From contig CM073331.1 of NCBI GenBank assembly GCA_037043015.1, positions 1,013,501-1,077,500 on the forward strand: 64,000 bases of DNA. Reading direction: 5' to 3'. The notes beneath the pieces were generated by a model, which did no database searches, was not told the DNA's origin, and was given only the letters and a program-made list of their open reading frames with translations. Shown piece after piece: positions 2,161-48,554 of the stretch (within the stretch, counting starts at the first letter, position 1; every line of letters starts with the position of its first letter). A program made the position numbers and the translations under genes. This DNA is from Bryum argenteum (lineage: Eukaryota > Streptophyta > Bryopsida > Bryales > Bryaceae).

Positions 2161-3149
2161 TGCACCAACTCACCATGGAAGATGCTGTTGCGGAGCTCTT
2201 AGGTGCTTGAATCCGATGCGGAATGCAAAAGGCAGCCGCTGCGGTTAGTCCCTCCAAGAATGGATCAGCTTGCGACCGCCTTAAGTTTTCACTTTCTCAA
2301 GTAAATTGTGCAAGAGCTAGACCCGGTCTCGGGATGAGCAGACCTCGACCAGCGCTTCGTACCCGACAATGAGTTCGTTCCTACGAGCGCGAAATCCAAG
2401 AACTCTAAAACCCGAGGTCGGCCAGCGTAAATGGAATTCGATCGACAACGAATGGCTTTGTGATCAGAACACATTGCCCGACTTGGAAGTGCAAGTAGTT
2501 TTTGACTTTGTGTACAGTACTTCACTACACAGAAGATGGTACCAGGGCCGCTTCACATGGAGAGTCTAGGCCAACAAACCAGTTCTGCTCAAATGCAGAA
2601 TACATTACAATGTAACAATATTGCAGTGTCGGCTAATTCTCTTGTATGCCCATTTTTGGATTTCATATGTTCATGCTTTTTGACTCACTTGAAAGCACCA
2701 TCACAACCTAATTGTATAGTGGGGTACAGAAATGATTGAAATTTGAGGGCAATTTTTGAAAAAGTTTGAAATGTGCGTGTGTCCTCAATAATAAATGGAA
2801 CTGCAATTTGTAAAAGGCGTTGGAACCACATCGGAGTGTTTGATAGTATAAGTGCAAAAAATTGTTTCTTTTTTGGTAAAATTGTTCAAAGAACTAAAAA
2901 TCTACATGCTCCATCCACGATTTACCTTTCTCACTTTGTGTTTGAACTGCTATGTTCACTTTCACTTGCAAAATTAATATGAGTGCCCAAACTTATTCTT
3001 TAGAAAGAAGTATGTGGAGCAATCCATGTAATCTTTTATTAGTTATTTCACATGGACAAGTAGATAACAAAGATGTGATTGCTAAGAACATTGCTGAACA
3101 TATTGAAGTTGTTTTATTCACAACGAGTGATAATTTTAGGATATCCTTC
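2161..3149. repeat. Non-coding flank of kinase module A
   Basis: No convincing gene. About 2161-2530 matches 10360-10725 (the other divergent flank). About 2500-2750 matches 16705-16950, including the motif GGGCCGCTTCACATGGAGAG near 2543. The remainder to 3149 is AT-rich with nothing recognised. Confidence 0.6.
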
Positions 3150-3835
3150 TAAAATCACATAAGGGCCGACTTAAATAGTTCATAGCCTTTAAGCTCTAAA
3201 CAATCCACCCAAACCTAGGTTGTCTATTGGAATCTTGATGCCACCATATTCAAATTGAATCCTTCTACATAGAATTATGGCCACTAGGTAATGTTGGTCT
3301 TTCACCCCTCAAAGATTTGTCTTCAAAAGGCATACATATTTTATAACATGTCATTGCAAAAGTCTACACATCCGTATATTCTATCGTCAATTGCGTAAAT
3401 GTCTCCTGTTGCAAGTTGCAGCAATGCAAGCAAAATCTCACGAGCTCTCCAAAACAATATGGTCTTAATACTGATTATGGATTCAAAATTTCCTACTCCC
3501 ATTCCATGATGGTTTTTTTCGATGCAGTAAGAACTTTGTTACTTTTAAGTCATTGTGGAGGATTCCCAACTCGTGAACACTTTAGAAGCCTCTTGAGTTC
3601 CAAATTATTGAAATAAACTTGTATGTTGTTTTACCATCAAATGGAGGGCATCCATTCCCTTTTCAACATATTCTCATCTATGAGCTTGCGTAGATCACCC
3701 CAATACAAAAGGAATGCGGAACATCCCATCGTCCAAGAACTCGACACCAAACGCGCAACAAAAAGTGTTTTGTGTCTAACCATTACCAGCAACAATATCA
3801 TTTGCCTTCACAAGCACCCCTGAAAACGTTGTCGA
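3150..3835 (-). pseudogene. Kinase pseudogene (module copy C, N-lobe deleted)
   Basis: Reverse-strand sequence aligns by eye with copy A from the C-terminal exon back to the start of the kinase C-lobe. Shared blocks include 'taatgttggtctttcacccc', 'tcttcaaaaggcata' and 'gcttgcgtagatcacccc'. Many small indels and stops destroy the frame. Just beyond 3790 the alignment jumps to sequence that in copy A lies near the start codon, so roughly 570 bp encoding the glycine loop and beta3 lysine are deleted. It cannot encode an active kinase. Confidence 0.8.
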
Positions 3836-8584: not shown

Positions 8585-10103
8585 CTACAAAATTCTTCCA
8601 TTTTGTCTTCTTCGTTCTTCTCTTGATTTAACTGAAAAATATGTGAGTAACTTGCCGTACATACCCTGGAATTCTGCACAAGAATAAGAAAGTTAAAAAA
8701 AGGGTGAAGGATTGCCACACAAAACTCATACATTTGTCTCTATATTCTTCATATGTATAAAACACTAAAAGGAAGAAAGAATTCGCTTCTAAAACTTGAA
8801 AATCATAGAAAGAAAAAACTTTATGTGTTTCAAACATAAGTAACTTACCTAAATTAGTTGCATGCTTGTCCTTAAAATCACATGTGGGCCACCACCTATA
8901 GTTCATAGCCTCCAAGTCCTCCACAACTTTAGAAAATGAAGGTCTTTGTTCAGGATCTTGATGCCAATATTTCATCACTAGATTGTTGTACATAGAATAA
9001 GGATCACTCGGTAATGTTGGTCTTTCACCCCTCAAAATAGTATCATAATCGCACACATCATGGTGTTCAAAAGGCATATGACCTGTAATGACTTCATAAC
9101 ATGTCATTGCAAAGCTGTACAAATCTGTCGCTTCTGTCGTTTGTTGCATAAATGTCTCCCCAGGATGCAACTTCCCATTCTTCAAAGCAAGCAAAATCTC
9201 AGGAGCTCTCCAATATCCTGTACCTTTAACACCGACAGAAGATTCAAAATCTCCTATTGCTATTGTATGATTGCCAGAACTCTACATTGATACTAAGACA
9301 TTTGATGCCTTTAAATCATTGTGAAGGATTCTAAACTGATGAAGAGACCACATGCCTCTCGCAATCCCTAAAATTGTCTTGTAGGTTGCGTAGTCATCGA
9401 ATGGAGGGCACCCATTTCTTTTCAATGTGAGCTCATCTATCACCTTGCGTAGATCACCCCAATGCCTATCAAATAAGAATGCAAATCTCCCATCTTCCAA
9501 CAATTGGCCACCCAACGCCCAACACAAATCGTCTTTATTAGCGGAACTCATTCTTGGAAAATATCGACGTTGCATTGCAATTTTTGCTACTCCGGGAGGC
9601 AACAACCTTTGCAATTGATCCAAAGGAAAATCCTTCTTGAAGACTTTCACCACAAGCCTAATCTTCCTATTCCCTGAACACCCGATATCGTCTTTATTCG
9701 TTCCAAGGGCTTCGAATATCTCAGCCTGTCCTCCCTCCGCAATCTTGTCGCCAACCTCCAACTCGTAAGGGTGACTCTCGAAAAACTCACCCCACTCAGG
9801 ATGCTCCTTCAGCTTCTCAAACGCCTGCACCTGCTCATCAGAGCTCGCAGCAGACACGGTCTCAGTCCAGCAGGATGTCGACGATTGAATATCAAACTGC
9901 AACTTGTTATCGAGCTTGCTCTGCACCTCACTCAATCCTGCGATGCGTGTCGAGTAGAAGAATGATGATGCCGCATCAGCACCCGCAGGAAGAGTGCACA
10001 AGCAGTGGGTCACGGGGGGAGCCGCAGGGAGAGAGCTCAAGCAGTGGGTCACGGCGGGAGGATCTCGGCATGTCAGCATTCTCGACATCTTTTGCCCCTG
10101 CAA
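8585..10103 (-). pseudogene. Kinase pseudogene (module copy B, single in-frame stop)
   Basis: Close paralogue of the kinase at 399-1898, with the same N-terminal AVTHCL motifs, glycine loop, beta3 lysine, catalytic loop (H-N-DLKASN), DFE, APE and DVYSF. The reverse-strand frame is open from 10103 to 9285, meets TAG at 9282-9284 (five codons after the catalytic-loop Asn), then resumes in the same frame to the donor at 8849/8848 (TTTAG|GTAAGT). A following exon can be read EFQGMYGK... to a stop at 8585-8587. Decay is recent: one nonsense codon and otherwise normal structure. Read-through or a base error in the sequence are alternatives. Confidence 0.75.
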
Positions 10104-19429: not shown

Positions 19430-21115
19430 CAACATGTCAATGCAAACTTCGTCTTCAGTCTTTGTCTTCATTTTCTTGTTCACCCTCTTAAATCTTTTGT
19501 TGTGTGTCCAAAATAAATTAGAAGTAGTAATCAGTTTAAAACTTTTAGATTTACCAATTTAGAAAAAGCTGACAAATCAACACACAAAATTGATAAATGT
19601 GACTTTTCATTTATCATGTATATGAAGACTAAAATAAACAATGTAATTACTTAAAAACCTGTTCATACAAGAAGCTCACCGAAGTAAGTGCATGACATAC
19701 ACTTGAATACTGCAAGACAAAATAAAAAATGTAAAAAAAATTATTACTCATCAAGTTACAAAAAAAGTGTGACAAATTGACATACGAAGTTGATATTTAC
19801 ATGTACCTCTACCAACAATGGCAAGTCGTATGCAAGTGTTGAGCTTCCTCCCTGTTTGAAGCACTTTCAACTACAAGATCCTCTTCTTCTTTACAAGTGT
19901 CTGTGTGAAAATCATGGTGATCAATGGACGTAAGTATAAATTATTATTATTTATTCACGTGAAGGCCATGAACTCCCAAACCATCGCATGCAGGCTCCTT
20001 GGACGCACGAAGAGAAACTTCTTGAAACCTTTTTCGAGGCCGCCATGAATAGAGTATTTGTTCGACCTCTCCTTAGATGTATGCTCACAGGTCATCACAC
20101 CAATGGTGTGACTACTAAATCCCTCTCATGGTGAAAGCTATGCTAATTCCTAGCTTGCCACTAGTACCATAGAGATACCCCACATGATATCTAGAGGATT
20201 ATGAGGTACCCACCATGGTTGGGTGGCCTATGGTGGTGAGTACTACGCCAACATGGGAAGTAAAACCTACGACCTACTCATCGGGAGCCATGAGCCCTAA
20301 CACTACCAAACCAAGGCCTATGGTGCCTTCCTTGGACGCAACATACCCTCCGAAATCAGTAATCTGCATTTACATTCTTCTCATTTTCATGTGATGAGGA
20401 TATCAAAGTAAGCTTGAAACCTTTAGAACATGAACAACATTGTACTCCACAACCTTGCTAACTAATTATGTGGATCATTGAACAATTCTAAGTCTTAAAC
20501 AACTTCAAGTGAAGGTCTATGTCTAGGATCTTAATGCCAACATTTTGTCATCAAGTTATTGTACATAGAGTAAGGATCACATGGCAATGTTGATCTTTTA
20601 CCCCTCAAAACAATATCATAGTCCTTGCACATCATGGCCTTCAAAGGGCACACTATGTGTATTGACTTCATAACATGTCATTGAAAAGGTGTACACATCC
20701 GTCTATTGCGTTGTTGTTGCATATCTTGTCTGTTGCGTTGTCTCTTGCATGAATGTCTCCTGTTACAAGTTACACTCCTTCAATGCATGCAATACCTCAG
20801 AAGCTCTGCTAATCTCTACGCTCTTAATTCCTACCAAGGATTCAAAATCTGCTATTGTTCTCAACCCATCCCTACACTCTACACTCAAGGTCATTCGCCG
20901 CTTTTAAGTGATGATATAAATGCAAATAAACACTCACATATAAATCCACACAGAGTGTGGATTGTGTGCCACCAGCAATTTGTTGAAACAAGTATCTTAA
21001 TATTGTCTGTCCAATCGATGTCGTACACTTGATTGATGGAACTCCTCCATTCGCTGCTAGTATGTCGCTAAAACAAGTTTTTCTCAGCATCAAGTCATAA
21101 GTTGTATTCCCCAAA
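19430..21115 (-). pseudogene. Kinase relic (module copy D), interrupted by a SINE
   Basis: 19480-19740 resembles the 3' intron and exon region of copy A (230-420). 20490-21110 resembles its C-lobe: 'aggatcttaatgccaacattt', 'tttacccctcaaaacaatatca', 'gacttcataacatgtcattg' and 'gattcaaaatctgctattg'. Reverse-strand traces of the catalytic loop remain as HHLKAAND near 20890. The frame is destroyed by many indels, and a SINE at 20008-20328 splits it. It is the oldest copy of the array, in the same orientation as the other three. Confidence 0.65.
20008..20328 (-). mobile_element. tRNA-derived SINE with 12-bp target duplication
   Basis: A diverged copy of the SINE family at 41221-41576. It is flanked by direct repeats TCCTTGGACGCA at 19996-20007 and 20329-20340. 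Read on the reverse strand, the 5' end corresponds to the tRNA-like head (ACCAAGGC...GGTTTGGTAG). It is inserted into kinase relic D. Confidence 0.75.
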
Positions 21116-22229
21116 TGTCTGCAACAAAGAAAAAGCAGAGTTTGAATCTCAATATTTCTGTAGCAACACAGTGGAAATTATAGTGATGAAGGAAGTGAAT
21201 AAATACCAGAATTAGCATCATGTGCACCAGAGCGTTCATGTATTTTTTTCATAATCAGCACATGAAGGCACGCCCCTAAGCACCTCAGAGCGTGCCCTTG
21301 AGGTCCACAACGGCTACAAATGACAGAATTGGAAGATGTTGCCGTGAAGGCTTCGCCGATCTATCCAAAACATTAACATCCCATAACATTCCATCCCATC
21401 GTTTATCCGCATTGTAAAAGGCTCTGCAAATATGAAGTCCTGAATTTCTGGTACTACAAACTCCCGTGAACCACCAAACTCAATAACCGTAAGAATGTGC
21501 ACTATCCAAGCCAATTAGGGTTACCACCGACAAAAATACGCTCTGAAACCGTAGGAAAATGGAAGTGGAGGGAGCCGATCACCTAGAATTGAGGGGAAGA
21601 ATACTACGAAGACACAACATGGTGCCATCGGAAGACACAGCATGTACCATTGCTAGAGAGACTTATCCTAGCTATTCTGGCTCTTAAGACCTCTGTCAGA
21701 GCTCGCGCTCTGCTGGAAGTTGTAATCGGAAGCACAGACGTAAAGACGGTACCTGCTCGTAGTGTTGTTAGCATTGACCATGGCCGTGGTTACAACGAAA
21801 TTGAATTCTCTTCCTGTGCGCAGAACTCTAGACAGTTTCCTCTAGATTTCGACAAAACATATCTCACCACTGTTTCTACTCTGTACATATCCGCAATTCA
21901 CTAAATTCCGACCAAATCTACCAAAAGGAAATGTCAATTCTGCAATTACGAATGATCTGATTGCGTGTCAGTGGTGGTTCAAGCACTTTGGACCTTTTCA
22001 GCTCCTCTCACAAAAGTCAGTCATTTTAGACATCATTTAAGACACTTGTCATCTAAGTCACCTCTCACAATTTTCTTTTTGCTTCGTCGAGATATTTGTC
22101 AGCCTCCACATTACACGAGATTGTGACCAACGTTTAATCTACTTGGATCAGCGGCCATAGTTGGAGCGAGTGCTGAAACGTTTTAGTCATGAGAATTGCA
22201 ATCCTGTAGTGATACCTTCGGATCCCAAC
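21116..22229. other. Intergenic, nothing firmly recognised
   Basis: An 84-codon forward frame at 21650-21904 has no recognisable motif. The interval probably includes the eroded upstream flank of kinase module D. Confidence 0.4.
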
Positions 22230-22710
22230 AGTGCAACGGAACTAGTTCTATACTGCAACTACTAATGTTGTCACTTGGCCGTTCCGATCGAGAGTGCATT
22301 GCTTGTCTGCAGTTCGCCTCGGTTGGAACACGAATTGATATCAGCTACGCAGTAAGTAACGCTGCACAAAGTTCAGCAGTCGACCCAGTGCAACCCATGT
22401 TTCGGTACTCAAGTCAGAATCAGAATATTTCTTTGCTTCTTTAGCTTCTAGGTAGTTATTCGGATGAGTCGCTAGCTAGTATTCGCTTTCCCAGACTGGA
22501 CCGAACAAGTTATCAGTAATAATCAGGCCGCCATACCATACGCTTATTTTAGAATCCGATCTTTCATCAGCAAACGAAACACATTGCAACAAAATTCGGG
22601 AGGCGCAACACAATGGAGACATTGAACTCCTCTACATTGCTATTGCAGACCAGCTTGCCGATATTCTTACGAAACAGTTGCCTCTAGATAAGTTTCAACG
22701 CATATGTTTC
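22230..22710 (+). pseudogene. Ty1/copia retrotransposon fragment (RT end and RNase H)
   Basis: Forward translations carry the signature of the copia reverse-transcriptase/RNase H junction: ACLQFASVGTRIDISYAVSNAA and a FRY...ISLLL strand, then GYSDES (RNase H start). Near 22600-22690 comes IREAQHNGDIELLYI followed by ADQLADILTKQLP. These are separated by stops and frameshifts, and no LTRs or upstream gag/integrase were found. It is an old internal fragment without coding capacity. Confidence 0.8.
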
Positions 22711-23285
22711 ATAACATGTGTGAGCGTATTCCTGATGATTCAAACAGTCAATCATAATCGGTTTATGCATGATTGAGTGTCTAGTAACAGCATATTCCGA
22801 TGACTTGAACAGTCATGTGATTGTAACTTCACAGGTAGACTACAATATCAGTATTGTTCAATTAGAGGTCAAGGAAAAATCATGGTGAGTTTCAGAGAAT
22901 GATTCAGTGGAGAAAGAGAAACTACTCTAGTATTGACATGGCAAGAGTTGGCACCTCAATGAGTGAGATTCGGCACAAAAAGGCCTTCGAAGTCCATCTC
23001 TTTGAACACACTCAGGAGTGAAGGATTTTTATTACAGCATTTGGATATGTCCTGATACATGCATATGCAGCGTTCTCACCGTACGTACCTCAAGCTTATG
23101 AAATTTAGAATGACGCTACATATGCAAGTATCCGGCCGGATGTTGCTCAGAAACACATATTGAAATGTTCCAAAGCCCTCTGATTAGAAACATGACTCCG
23201 TCGCACATGTAAGGTCACCTGTTAGCTGTGGTCGATGCTCTACAGTCGAAAAATGTCCTGAGATGCTCGGTGCGCAACATTGCAG
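22711..23285. other. Intergenic between copia relic and kinase gene
   Basis: No supported feature. Part may be an eroded copia 3' end. Confidence 0.4.
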
Positions 23286-23909: not shown

Positions 23910-26707
23910 AGTGGAGTGATGACATTGTAGAGTCCGACGTGTCCGAGATACAGGTACATTCTAGTATGTCAGAAATCTGCGATTGTTTGTGCCAGGGACC
24001 CATCATGAATACAATGCAAGAACCTTCTGATTCTAGGACGCAACAAGCTCCCTCTCCACCCTTACCAGAAGGTAGCATGCTCATTTACTCTACTGAATTT
24101 CTGCTTTAGCTAGGATCCGCGATTTATCTTCAAGTTCTGGGCCATTTGCAACATAAACAGTAAATATCGGATGGAATTGAGGTTTGTTGTGTTATGTTTC
24201 CCACGACTTTTCAGAGGCATTTGAACACGAATGTGAAGAAGAAGCTTTGTATTGTAGATCATTATGCTGACTGTTTCTGGTGAACAGAGGAAAAAGTGGT
24301 GTTTATAGACAACGGTGATACGTTGCTGCCTTGTGTATTCAACGTCGATCACAACGACATAAAGGAGGTCAAAATGCTTTCTTCCCCATATGCACCAGTG
24401 AAAGTATTCAAAGCAACGTGGTTAGGTCGGGACGTTGCGGTCAAGACGTTCTGTAACTCAAAAACTTCACTGAATCAGATCCTGATGAGTCGAGAAGCGA
24501 ATTACATGAGGCGAGTGCGCCACCCGAACGTGCTCAACTTCCTGGGGTGCTACTATCGAGCGCAGGGCGAGACTGTGAAGAGTGCCTCACTCATCACGGA
24601 ACTTCTGGACTGTAATCTCAAACAATACGTACCATCGAACTGTGGTTTACCGTTTGCAACCGAGGGGCTTCACATTGCAGCGCAACTGGCTCGCGGGTTG
24701 AACCACATCCACAGGATGGGCCTCTGTCATCACGACCTCAAGCCTGAGAACATTTTGGTGAAGAAGACTAGTCTTTATGCGCATGTGAAGATTGGTGACT
24801 TTGGTTGCTCGCATCTCATGTCATCCCCAAGCAACCCAAAGTCCGGCACGCGATGGTACAGAGCGCCTGAGCAGTTCACAGCCAAACCTGAAGAAATCAA
24901 ACCTGCGAAGCTGGATGTCTACAGCTTCGCCGTTGTGTTCTCGTGGATTCTGACCGGAGTGGAACCCAGCGGTGGCGAGCTCAACATTCCCTGGAGACAA
25001 TTGCCACCCGACGTTCGGCGTCTCATTCGGAGATGTTTGTCCCACAACCCCACAAAAAGGCCAGATTTCGCCGAGATATGCAGCGTGTTGAACCCGCTGC
25101 TCGGAGAAGAGGAGATTGATTGGTCCCGGAAAACCAACTTGATGGAAGTACCGATCAGAAGCAGCTGTGATGCTGCTGTGGAGCGAGAGCTCGAAGCCCG
25201 CGGTTTCAAGCGCTCTCACGGTATGTCTGCTGACTACTGCATAGAGAGCGATAGCATTCAGCAGTTCCCCATGATAGGACAGGGTACGGACGCCATAGTC
25301 TACAAGGTGAAATATTTGTCCGAGTGGTACGCCGGCCGCGCCTTACCGAACAAGGAGACGATGCCGGCCGATAAGTCGAGGGCCACTCTGACTCCGCAAG
25401 AGGAGACGATGCCGGTCGAGAAGTCGAGGGCCACTCTGACTCCGCAAGAGGAGACGATGCCGGTCGAGAAGTCGAGGGCCACTCTGACTCCGCAAGAGGA
25501 GACGATGCCGGCCGATAAGTCGAGGGCCACTCTGACTCCGCAAGAGGAGACGATGCCGGTCGAGAAGTCGAGGGCCACTCTGACTCCGCAAGAGGAGACG
25601 ATGCCGGCCGATAAGTCGAGGGCCACTCTGACTCCGCAAGAGGAGACGATGCCGGCCGATAAGTCGAGGGCCACTCTAACTCCCCAAGAGGAGAGAGCTG
25701 CGTTTTTTCGGAGCAGTCAAGCCGGACGGCTGCAATTCGTGAAGCACGACAACATCGTACAGTACATTGGATTCTCCTTGCGGGAGAACGACACCCTGTT
25801 CATCTCGGAGCTCATGCAGGAAGATCTTGGCCAGATTTTGTTAATGAGGTCGGAAAAGGAAAGGGAAGGAAGCCTGGCATGGAAGAGACCTTTCGATGCG
25901 GACAGAAGCTTGAGCATCATCAAGAAGGTGGCTCGCGGCATGAAGTACCTGCATGTAAACATGGACTGCTGGCATGGCGACTTGCACTGCTCCAACATCA
26001 TGGTCACCGCGCCATCGAGGTGCCGGAAAACGATACGGAACGGTTGTTCGGAAGGAAGCTTTAGCATCATCAAGAAGGTGGCTCGTGGCATGAAGCACCT
26101 GCTTGTGAACAAGGACTGTTGGCATGGCAACTTGCACTGCTCCAACACCATGGTCACCGCGCCATCGAGGTGCCTGGAAATTATACGGAACGGTTGTTCG
26201 AAAATAAAATGTGATCCTCCATTCAAAGGTCATTCCAAGTGTTTGAAGGGGATGATAATTAAGATCACAGACTCAGGAGGGGATCCGTTTCGATGCGCTT
26301 ATGATTATGGGGCTCCCGAAATGCAGAGGTTGCTGATAAAAGAAGCCCAGTTTTCGGACGAGTGGAGGATCAAAAAAGACGAAGAGAAGCGCAGGCTCTA
26401 CAAACAGTGGGATGTTTATTCCTTTGGTGTTCTTTGCTACCAAATTCTCACCGGTTTCTTTCCACTGGACCAAATTGTGCGGCAAACTTGTCGAGAAAGA
26501 ATGGAGACCCTTGGTGCGGGAGTCCGGCCGCCGTTGCCGCTAGACACAGATGCCAACCTGAAGAAACTCATCGAAGATTGCTGGCATTCGGACCCTGATA
26601 AACGACCCGACTTCACAGAAGTTCTTCATCGCTTGTACAATGGTAGCCCTCCAGAGGACTACCAGGATCAACAACAAGTTTTGACAGGGAGATTTCCCGT
26701 CATGTGA
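23910..26707 (+). CDS. Tandem two-domain protein kinase / pseudokinase
   Basis: Exon 23910-24071 (WSDDIVESDVSEIQV...) joins in phase to exon 24288-26707 (G|AG, giving E-EKVVF). Domain 1 (24340-25100) has all the active-kinase motifs: VAVK, HHDLKPEN (Asp codon 24734-24736), DFG (24797-24805), APE and KRPDF. Domain 2 (25260-26640) has a glycine loop (GQGTDAIVYKV), then seven 16-residue repeats where the beta3 lysine strand should be. It then has two 50-residue copies of the catalytic-loop segment, HGDLHCSN followed by HGNLHCSN, a degenerate DFG (TDSGG), APE, DVYSFGVL and KRPDF. Domain 2 is therefore probably a pseudokinase that regulates domain 1, an inference by analogy with other dual-kinase proteins. 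The true N-terminus lies further upstream. Third-position GC is higher than in the flanks. Confidence 0.82.
25355..25690 (+). repeat. 7 x 48-bp in-frame minisatellite
   Basis: Seven perfectly in-phase units encode ETMPADKSRATLTPQE or the variant ETMPVEKSRATLTPQE, in the order ADK, VEK, VEK, ADK, VEK, ADK, ADK. The near identity of the units shows recent expansion inside the second kinase domain. Confidence 0.97.
25907..26206 (+). repeat. 150-bp exact-period tandem duplication of the catalytic-loop segment
   Basis: 25907-26056 and 26057-26206 are about 90 percent alike. Each encodes SIIKKVARGMK...WHG(D/N)LHCSN...APSRC. The Asp codon at 25979-25981 is Asn at 26129-26131. Confidence 0.95.
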
Positions 26708-46529: not shown

Positions 46530-46543
46530 GATTTGTGGTCGTC

Positions 46544-48554
46544 ATGGCGCGTTCGGAGTGCCGGCAATGGCGAATCAGCTTCTGTGTACTAGTAGTGATG
46601 GTGTTGGTGATCGGGTCATCTGTTGAAGTGGAAGGGTCATTCTTCTCGAGAGCGGTCGTGGCAGCTGGCCCTGTGGCGGCAGTGCCGCCCGTGGTGGCTG
46701 AACCTCCCGTAGCGGTGGTCGTGCCCCCGAAGGCAGCCCCAGCTCCAGTCGTAGCGAAGCCTCCAGCAGTGGTCGCTAAGCCACCCGCGGTAGCGCCCGT
46801 GGTCGCGACAAAGCCTCCAGCCGTGGCCCCCGTGGTCGCGACGAAGCCTCCAGCCGCGGCCCCCGTGGTCACCGCGAAGCCTCCAGCCGTGGTCCCTGTC
46901 GCGGCGCCCGTGGTCGCGAAGCCGCCTGCAGTGGCGCCAGTGGTCTCGAAGCCGCCTGCAGTGGCGCCAGTGGTCTCGAAGCCGCCTGCAGTGGCGCCAG
47001 TGGTCGCGAAGGCGCCAACGGTGGCCCCAGCGAAAGCGCCCCTAGCGAAAGCGCCCACAGCGAAAGCACCTACAGCGAAGGCACCCACGGCATTGGCGCC
47101 CGTGGTGGATGCTCCCACAGCATTGCCACCCGTGGTGGATGCTCCCACAGCATTGCCGCCCGCAGCAGCAGGGCCGGAGTTCGCGCCCGCGACCGGCGTT
47201 CCACTCGACGCCGCGCAGGTGAAAGCTCTGAACGCGCTCGGCATAGTAGCAGACGCGGACGCCTGCTCCACGATCCCCCAAGCCGTGCTAACGTGCGACC
47301 GAAACTCGACGACCCAGCACATCGTGACACTAAGCGCGCAGGACTGTTCCGCAAAGGCCGTGCTCTCCGAAGCGAACTTGGCCGCGCTCGCGCCGTACAT
47401 GACTGATCTCAGTTTCTTGAACTGCAATCTCAAGCTCGCTCTACCAGAACCCACAGCCCGCATGGTGAACACTCTTAAGTCGCTCACGATCTCCACCGCG
47501 CCCCAAGTCGCCGGCTGGTGGATCGGCCGGCTCACGAATCTAGAAACTCTGTCAGTCACTGACACGTATGTCAAGGTCTCCTCGGGGTTGGATGTCATCA
47601 CCAGCACGCTCACCAATCTTGTCGAACTCCGAATCGCCAACACTTCGATCAGCGGCGCCATTCCTACTGAATGGCCTTCCGCCGCCACGCTCACCACCCT
47701 TGACTTGTCTGGCAACGGCCTCAGCGGCTCCATCCCGGTCAGCCTCACCAAGTTGCCGCTCCTCACAACCCTCGATCTCAGCCGCAATCGCCTCAACGAC
47801 CACATCATCAGCGCCATCGGCGACATGAGCAGCCTCCAGGTGAGCACTTCTCTTGACCCATCACACTAATCCACCATTCCCTATCGGGGCATCTGCATTA
47901 CCGGTGACACTCGACCCTCATTCTCACCACTTCTCATCCACCGAAGACGCTCCACTCCTCTGCTCCATGGTCACCCAGTGATGTTTCAGACGATGCCTAG
48001 AGGTCGCTAGTACTACAGGATCTAACCACCATGAGTGCATGCTCCTGCAGACACTGGATCTGAGCCAGAACGATCTGAAAATGGGGATTCCGAGGACGCT
48101 AGGCCAGCTAGCCTTTCTGCAACATCTGGACCTGAGCAAGAACAAGCTGAACGGCACGGTACCACCGGAGCTGGGGAACTTGCCACTGACGTACTTGGAT
48201 CTGAGCAACAACTCACTGTCAGGGGAGCTTCCGTTCGACGAACTGTTCCTGTCGAAGCTGAAGACGTTCAAGATTAGTGGCAACCCGAACTTGTGCTACA
48301 ACAGTACCGTGACTCCGGCGAAGCTCTCAAGTGGGTTGCGGGTGTGCGGCGCTCTGGAGCCCGTGGCCGCGCCCGAGTACTACGGCCCTGTGGGTGCCCC
48401 GGAAGCGGCACTCGATGGCGGCGAGGCGCCCAGCTCAAAGAAAAAGCCGAATATTGTTGTAATTGTGTTCGCCACTCTGGGATCTCTAGTCGCCGTCGCT
48501 GCGATTGTGTACTGTTGCTGCCGCTATTGGGGCGCCAAAGCCGGTTACGAGTAA
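46544..48554 (+). CDS. LRR membrane protein with proline/alanine-rich stalk (receptor-like, no kinase)
   Basis: Coding exons 46544-47839 and 48051-48554 join in frame (SLQ|TLDLSQ) to give 599 aa. The order is a signal peptide (about 1-31, FCVLVVMVLVIG), a long KPPAVAPVV-type Pro/Ala/Val/Lys-rich region (about 45-205), a Cys-bearing cap, about eight LRRs of plant type (LTTLDLSGNGLSGSIP, LQHLDLSKNKLNGTVP), a Cys-containing C-cap, a transmembrane helix (IVVIVFATLGSLVAVAAIVY) and a 12-residue cytoplasmic tail. It lacks a kinase domain, so it resembles a receptor-like protein. It may span wall and membrane, the stalk resembling extensin/AGP-type wall sequence. LRX proteins have LRRs first and extensin after, so this order is reversed. 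The intron falls between LRR repeats, as is common. ATG 46544 is the first in frame after the leader intron. Confidence 0.88.
46675..47165 (+). repeat. Coding Pro/Ala-rich repeat array
   Basis: Imperfect KPPAV(A/V)PVV(A/S/T) units, including three exact-period 30-bp units at 46921-47010, then AKAPT and DAPTALPPV units. It is GC-rich against an AT-rich neighbourhood. Confidence 0.9.

Follow-up and report, generated by a model that had tools for sequence, protein, structure and literature searches.

Two in-frame repeat expansions in the probable pseudokinase domain of a tandem kinase gene from the moss Bryum argenteum

The locus and its two kinase domains

The window is a 64,000-nucleotide stretch of the Bryum argenteum genome (CM073331.1, positions 1,013,501 to 1,077,500) and is part of contig C11 (7.0 Mb) of the 258.8-Mb, 25-contig genome that was searched. 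An LHCII-type protein from this genome has as its top PDB match chain 2 of 9vfj (620 residues, two matched stretches, 526 bits), followed by 8htu and 7xqp (471 and 469 bits, a single full-length stretch in each case), all other entries scoring 440 bits or less; 8htu and 7xqp are moss photosystem structures. On its forward strand, one open frame of 807 codons, counted stop to stop, runs from 24284 to 26704 and encodes two kinase domains; three Pfam kinase stretches are counted within it. The other five frames of the same stretch contain 11, 23, 24, 37 and 44 stops, which bears out the statement of a preliminary description that the frame is kept throughout. Third-position G+C lies between 0.50 and 0.77 and exceeds the second-position value in all six gene segments. 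A tentative 5' coding exon, placed by eye, would join the main frame into 828 stop-free codons (24005-24071 plus 24288-26704), with splice sites that are weak and fall below the thresholds of a crude matrix. The gene outline and the landmarks of both domains are as follows.

24005..24071 (+): tentative 5' coding exon (MNTMQEPSDSRTQQAPSPPLPE), GT at 24072 and AG ending at 24287, by eye
24284..26704 (+): main open frame, 807 codons stop to stop, two kinase domains
24374..25087 (+): kinase domain 1, from the best Pfam PF07714 stretch (aa 36-264) and the sibling alignment
24374..24409 (+): domain 1, degenerate Gly-loop, reads MLSSPYAPVKVF
24434..24451 (+): domain 1, VAVK
24485..24505 (+): domain 1, SRE of alphaC
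24725..24751 (+): domain 1, HHDLKPEN
24791..24805 (+): domain 1, DFG
24857..24871 (+): domain 1, RAPE
25052..25069 (+): domain 1, KRPDF
25274..26640 (+): kinase domain 2, probable pseudokinase, approximate limits from the sibling alignment and PDB sequence matches
25274..25306 (+): domain 2, good glycine-rich loop IGQGTDAIVYK
25328..25345 (+): domain 2, YAGRAL in place of VAVK
25691..25762 (+): domain 2, alphaC and alphaC-beta4 (ERAAFFRSSQAGRLQFVKHDNIVQ), Gln aligned at the salt-bridge Glu position
26261..26281 (+): domain 2, DSG in place of DFG
26306..26320 (+): domain 2, GAPE
26411..26431 (+): domain 2, DVYSFG
26597..26614 (+): domain 2, KRPDF

Domain 1 is the more canonical of the two. Scored by eye on the alignment under the scheme of PMC6170490, it keeps seven of eight key kinase residues, namely the Lys of VAVK, the alphaC Glu, the Asp of HHD, the Asn, the Asp of DFG, the Glu of APE and the Arg, with G52 missing. 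The absence of a glycine-rich loop leaves its predicted activity unsure. The earlier portrayal of domain 1 as intact therefore stands for seven of the eight residues and fails at the degenerate loop. Domain 2 carries Arg at the beta3 Lys, Gln at the alphaC Glu and DSG at DFG, and it retains APE and the Arg. By the same scheme and also by eye, it keeps six of the eight residues when copy 1 of its duplicated catalytic loop is counted and five when copy 2 is counted. Because both the beta3 Lys and the alphaC Glu are missing, domain 2 is probably a pseudokinase. These changes favour the first half of the earlier proposal of a pseudokinase or scaffold; as for the scaffold half, the duplicate copies give no sign of selection for a new one.

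Searches against the PDB place the domains near different relatives. The sequence of domain 1 returned two CTR1 chains first and 6lba in the third row; CTR1, its nearest PDB relative, is presumably Raf-like. The top matches of domain 2 were 6lba (E 1.1e-18) and 6ka4 (E 9.5e-16), which we take to be structures of Arabidopsis MLKL (AtMLKL). Among the protein matches listed, no close paralogue of the tandem kinase gene was found in its own genome, and the closest other matches reach 35% identity for domain 1 and 46% over 82 C-lobe residues for domain 2. A DNA search that skips very common words finds no other match in the genome for the array region or for the 3' part with the duplication. Apart from a kinase-related Kdo match, no other convincing Pfam domain was found in the frame or in seven scanned upstream pieces, the 5' exon being tentative. 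Fifteen NCBIfam models match, every one under its cut-off, and no Rfam family reaches its gathering threshold in the window. A search of the genome for the DUF1221 family (PF06760) gave no match, but its controls gave none either, so that it carries no information. AlphaFold2 run without relatives yielded unusable models, with a mean pLDDT of 36.3 for domain 2 and 35.3 for the whole frame.

The window holds further kinase sequences. On the minus strand, 474-1898 and 8628-10103 hold related TKL kinase genes or parts of such genes, each with a two-copy 39-bp repeat near its 5' end, and two kinase C-lobe fragments lie at approximately 3142-3411 and 20438-20855, also on the minus strand. These kinases and fragments form a small birth-and-death cluster. 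Upstream of the tandem kinase gene, 22193-22773 (+) contains pieces that by eye resemble copia reverse transcriptase and RNase H, with no Pfam match. Downstream, an ORF at 46535-47866 (+) has proline-rich repeats of 30-33 bp ahead of leucine-rich repeats, and a long open frame overlaps it on the opposite strand.

Two adjacent expansions within domain 2

Domain 2 is interrupted by two in-frame expansions.

25355..25690 (+): coding minisatellite, 7 x 48 bp = 7 x 16 residues, unit ETMP[AD/VE]KSRATLTPQE, in the beta3-alphaC loop
25907..26053 (+): duplication copy 1, with alphaE, catalytic loop HGDLHCSN (25973-25996), beta7 and part of the beta7-beta8 loop; family-like
26057..26203 (+): duplication copy 2, the alphaE-to-beta7-beta8 segment again, with HGNLHCSN (26123-26146); drifted

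The minisatellite consists of precisely 7.0 repeats of a 48-bp unit, in phase with the codons (TRF score 628, 96% matches), in agreement with the array of seven 16-residue units first described. Its units follow the order ADK, VEK, VEK, ADK, VEK, ADK, ADK. Two positions separate the unit types, and each of these differences alters the amino acid; beyond them, the units vary only by two silent changes in the last copy. The 30-base unit core, allowing three mismatches or fewer, occurs seven times in the 258.8-Mb genome, each time within the array, and its reversed control occurs nowhere. Each of the seven units contributes one Thr-Pro pair, and the 803-residue reading has no others.

The spacing of the flanking motifs defines where the array sits. 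Without any unit, 23 residues separate the beta3 Lys/Arg position of domain 2 from the His of HxN, and a single unit would raise this to 39; the corresponding spacing is 21-25 in five sibling domains and domain 1, by hand count on the alignment. As the zero-unit spacing is the sibling spacing, all 112 array residues are inserted. The array thus does not take the place of the beta3/alphaC region, as had been proposed, but is inserted in the loop between the two elements, both of which still align.

The second expansion repeats the catalytic loop with a period of 150 bp (TRF score 501, 91% matches), giving 49 in-frame codons per copy. The 150-bp phase of the duplication and the contrast of HGD (copy 1) with HGN (copy 2) are as originally reported. 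The two expansions are adjacent, about 215 bp apart, rather than nested as first described. With 48-bp units so nearly identical, the lack of stops across all of them says hardly more than its lack in one; more weight attaches to both periods being multiples of three.

Between the two copies of the loop segment there are 10.5 non-synonymous differences on 116.3 sites and 3.5 synonymous differences on 30.7 sites. The resulting dN/dS of 0.78 is not distinguishable from 1 (Fisher p 0.49), and the overall divergence of the copies fits neutrality. Six differing sites could be aligned with 19 other domains (17 siblings, domain 1 and one window kinase), the remaining ones falling in columns without siblings. 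At five of the six the copy-1 residue is the commoner, and at one the copy-2 residue is (2 vs 1). With the commoner residue mostly in copy 1, this copy looks kept and copy 2 looks free. The beta7-beta8 loop is also long in one sibling, L042.

Relatives in the genome and known tandem kinases

Repeats are present in other kinase genes of this moss. Among 54 loci, all 11 TRF arrays within the longest open frame across the kinase match have periods divisible by three, compared with 15 of 31 outside that frame. The in-frame arrays come from nine of the 54 loci, and the two highest scores among them (628 and 501) belong to the window gene, followed by 248. This count leaves out periods below 9 and four of 58 loci that were same-gene repeats (L029, L039, L040, L049); it retains overlaps among L034/L047/L050 and L035/L041, two overlapping arrays in L023, and the near-identical gene pair L015 and L024. 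The frame used here is wider than the kinase domain, and some arrays lie outside the domain. Smaller in-frame duplications occur inside sibling kinase domains: 21 bp in L011, 18 bp in L015/L024 and 63 bp (81% identity) in L064. That all in-frame arrays are divisible by three, together with these sibling duplications, suggests slippage or unequal exchange acting through a frame filter.

Relationships were assessed on an alignment that joined domains 1 and 2 with 17 domains from siblings and another kinase of the window; a protein alignment of both domains with window kinase A1 misaligned the N-lobes and was left out. In the resulting tree of 20 domains, both domains of the gene form long end branches (2.55 and 3.25) without a supported place. 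Six sibling ORFs carry two kinase domains in one frame. Three of the genome's tandem kinase ORFs, of 834-869 aa, lie on C10 (L037, L059 and L060, at about 2.4755-2.4781, 9.1958-9.1983 and 9.2025-9.2051 Mb) and share the order MLKL_N, a first kinase domain in which DLR replaces DFG and the glycine-rich loop is missing, and a second domain with DFG and HRD (HRN in L037). Their MLKL_N matches of 39.5, 32.8 and 29.3 bits exceed the Pfam cut-off of 27, and their sequences read as an MLKL-like pseudokinase fused to a kinase.

Other unusual arrangements were seen elsewhere. L042:16-2235 (C4, about 23.307 Mb) joins, in one open frame, a TKL-type kinase domain and a partial match to class I chitinase (GH19), with a Cys-rich stretch before the latter. 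L064 (C7:17597000-17605000) holds three adjoining single kinases in which the activation segment is followed by additional APE-like or PPE motifs, and in one of the three its 63-bp duplication lies directly behind these motifs. Contigs C2, C3 and C5 carry tandem clusters of weak, partial matches to chlorophyll-binding proteins, dozens in all, possibly from ELIP-type genes. ELIP expansions are reported in PMC13120521 for desiccation-tolerant Syntrichia mosses. The longest contig seen, C1 (44.1 Mb), shows no kinase or light-harvesting match among the matches listed, and the DNA search does read it; C1 is possibly gene-poor or a sex chromosome, or the pattern may arise because the best candidates alone are listed.

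A comparison with plant tandem kinase proteins (TKPs) reveals shared features. PMC6170490 and PMC8956640 name Yr15/WTK1, Pm24, Sr62 and Rpg1, state the kinase-pseudokinase order for Yr15, Pm24 and Sr62, and include Raf-like MAP3K domains among those of TKPs. They also propose a decoy or regulatory role for the pseudokinase. In Sr62, kinase 1 has eight of eight key residues and kinase 2 has five (PMC8956640), and one tandem kinase-pseudokinase protein is counted for Physcomitrella patens in PMC6170490. Like these proteins, the moss gene encodes two kinase domains in one predicted protein, as seen by Pfam and alignment, one of them near-canonical (7/8) and the other degraded (6/8 or 5/8). Unlike the wheat TKPs, with their WAK or DLSV kinases, its domain 1 is nearest CTR1 and its domain 2 nearest plant MLKL-type proteins in the PDB. 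The 112-residue array and the duplicated catalytic loop of its pseudokinase likewise set it apart from TKPs.

Two further families share parts of this architecture. Domain 2 resembles plant MLKL proteins, which include Pm13 (PMC10951266), in its best PDB matches, and its HGD-type catalytic loop is like that of 6lba. Unlike plant MLKL, the moss gene has two kinase domains, and no MLKL_N/HeLo domain was found in the frame or in the seven scanned upstream pieces. In a tblastn search with the ORFs of the three MLKL_N siblings, the N-terminal part had no match in the window at E 1e-3, a search by which a 5' exon could be missed. The Janus kinases also join a kinase and a pseudokinase in tandem. They are an animal family with the reverse, pseudokinase-kinase order (JH2-JH1), and their other domains are absent from the moss gene. 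Their kinase-pseudokinase structure is noted in PMC6170490. Among the matches listed from the open literature, none described a minisatellite in coding sequence within a plant pseudokinase. With its inserted repeats, the moss gene is a striking but probably isolated form of a type of plant protein already known.

Origin and meaning of the expansions

With moderate confidence, the gene can be read as a divergent plant tandem kinase-pseudokinase whose pseudokinase tolerated growth in its loops by slippage or unequal exchange. Replication slippage or unequal exchange would have made both expansions, and selection would have removed the repeat products that broke the frame. The expansions may have persisted because domain 2 was freed from catalysis and the affected sites could bulge as loops. 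Copy 1 would then build the C-lobe, while copy 2 would be extruded as an insert of about 50 residues in the beta7-beta8 loop and drift neutrally. Domain 1, a kinase of the non-RD type, would supply whatever catalytic output exists, and domain 2 would act alongside it without catalysis, in a regulatory or bait-like role of the kind proposed for plant tandem kinases. For the array as such, no specific function is likely.

The main rival is a young pseudogene or dying gene, in which the expansions and residue drift reflect lost constraint and stops have yet to appear. Several observations are consistent with such decay: the duplicate dN/dS near 1, the glycine-rich loop missing from domain 1, the long branches of both domains, the tentative 5' exon, and the minus-strand kinase fragments, which show that genes do die in this neighbourhood. 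Against it stand 807 stop-free codons where the other frames have 11 to 44 stops, two expansions that are both multiples of three, and the third-position G+C excess in every segment; the zero stops among the 14 differences between the duplicate copies weigh little, having a probability of 0.60 by chance. A decaying gene is fairly unlikely. The array lies between splice donor-like sites at 25221 and 25307 on one side and an acceptor-like site at 25716 on the other. At the sequence level, these best-scoring sites of a crude matrix would excise 496 or 410 bp, a frameshift in either case, and the array contains 12% T as against 35% in the putative upstream intron; splicing-out of the array is unlikely. 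An assembly error could still have altered the copy number of the array, although the mixed unit order and the roughly 9% divergence of the duplicate are unlike assembler stutter. An array or duplication that is spliced out or misassembled is, overall, quite improbable.

The array could instead be functional, its seven Thr-Pro motifs forming a phosphosite or docking element tunable by copy number, with the pseudokinase as carrier. The confinement of every Thr-Pro pair to the array, one per unit, fits this proposal, as does the fact that both differences between unit types change amino acids and the two others are silent. Yet any repeat multiplies the motifs of its unit, the array is unique in the genome, and recent spread suffices to explain its homogeneity. 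A functional array is improbable. A bolder version, in which the pseudokinase half tolerates modular growth so that domain 1 reads a tunable Thr-Pro phosphosite ladder while one loop copy drifts into a new surface and the other keeps the fold, is very improbable.

The reading as a divergent tandem kinase-pseudokinase with tolerated loop growth places these events in an architecture, kinase and pseudokinase in tandem, that plants use for immunity. If expressed, the gene would amount to a natural experiment in how much stretching a kinase fold can bear after catalysis is given up. The better-supported wider point is the frame filter, seen in the in-frame arrays of the genome's kinases, every one divisible by three, and in the in-frame duplications of the siblings.
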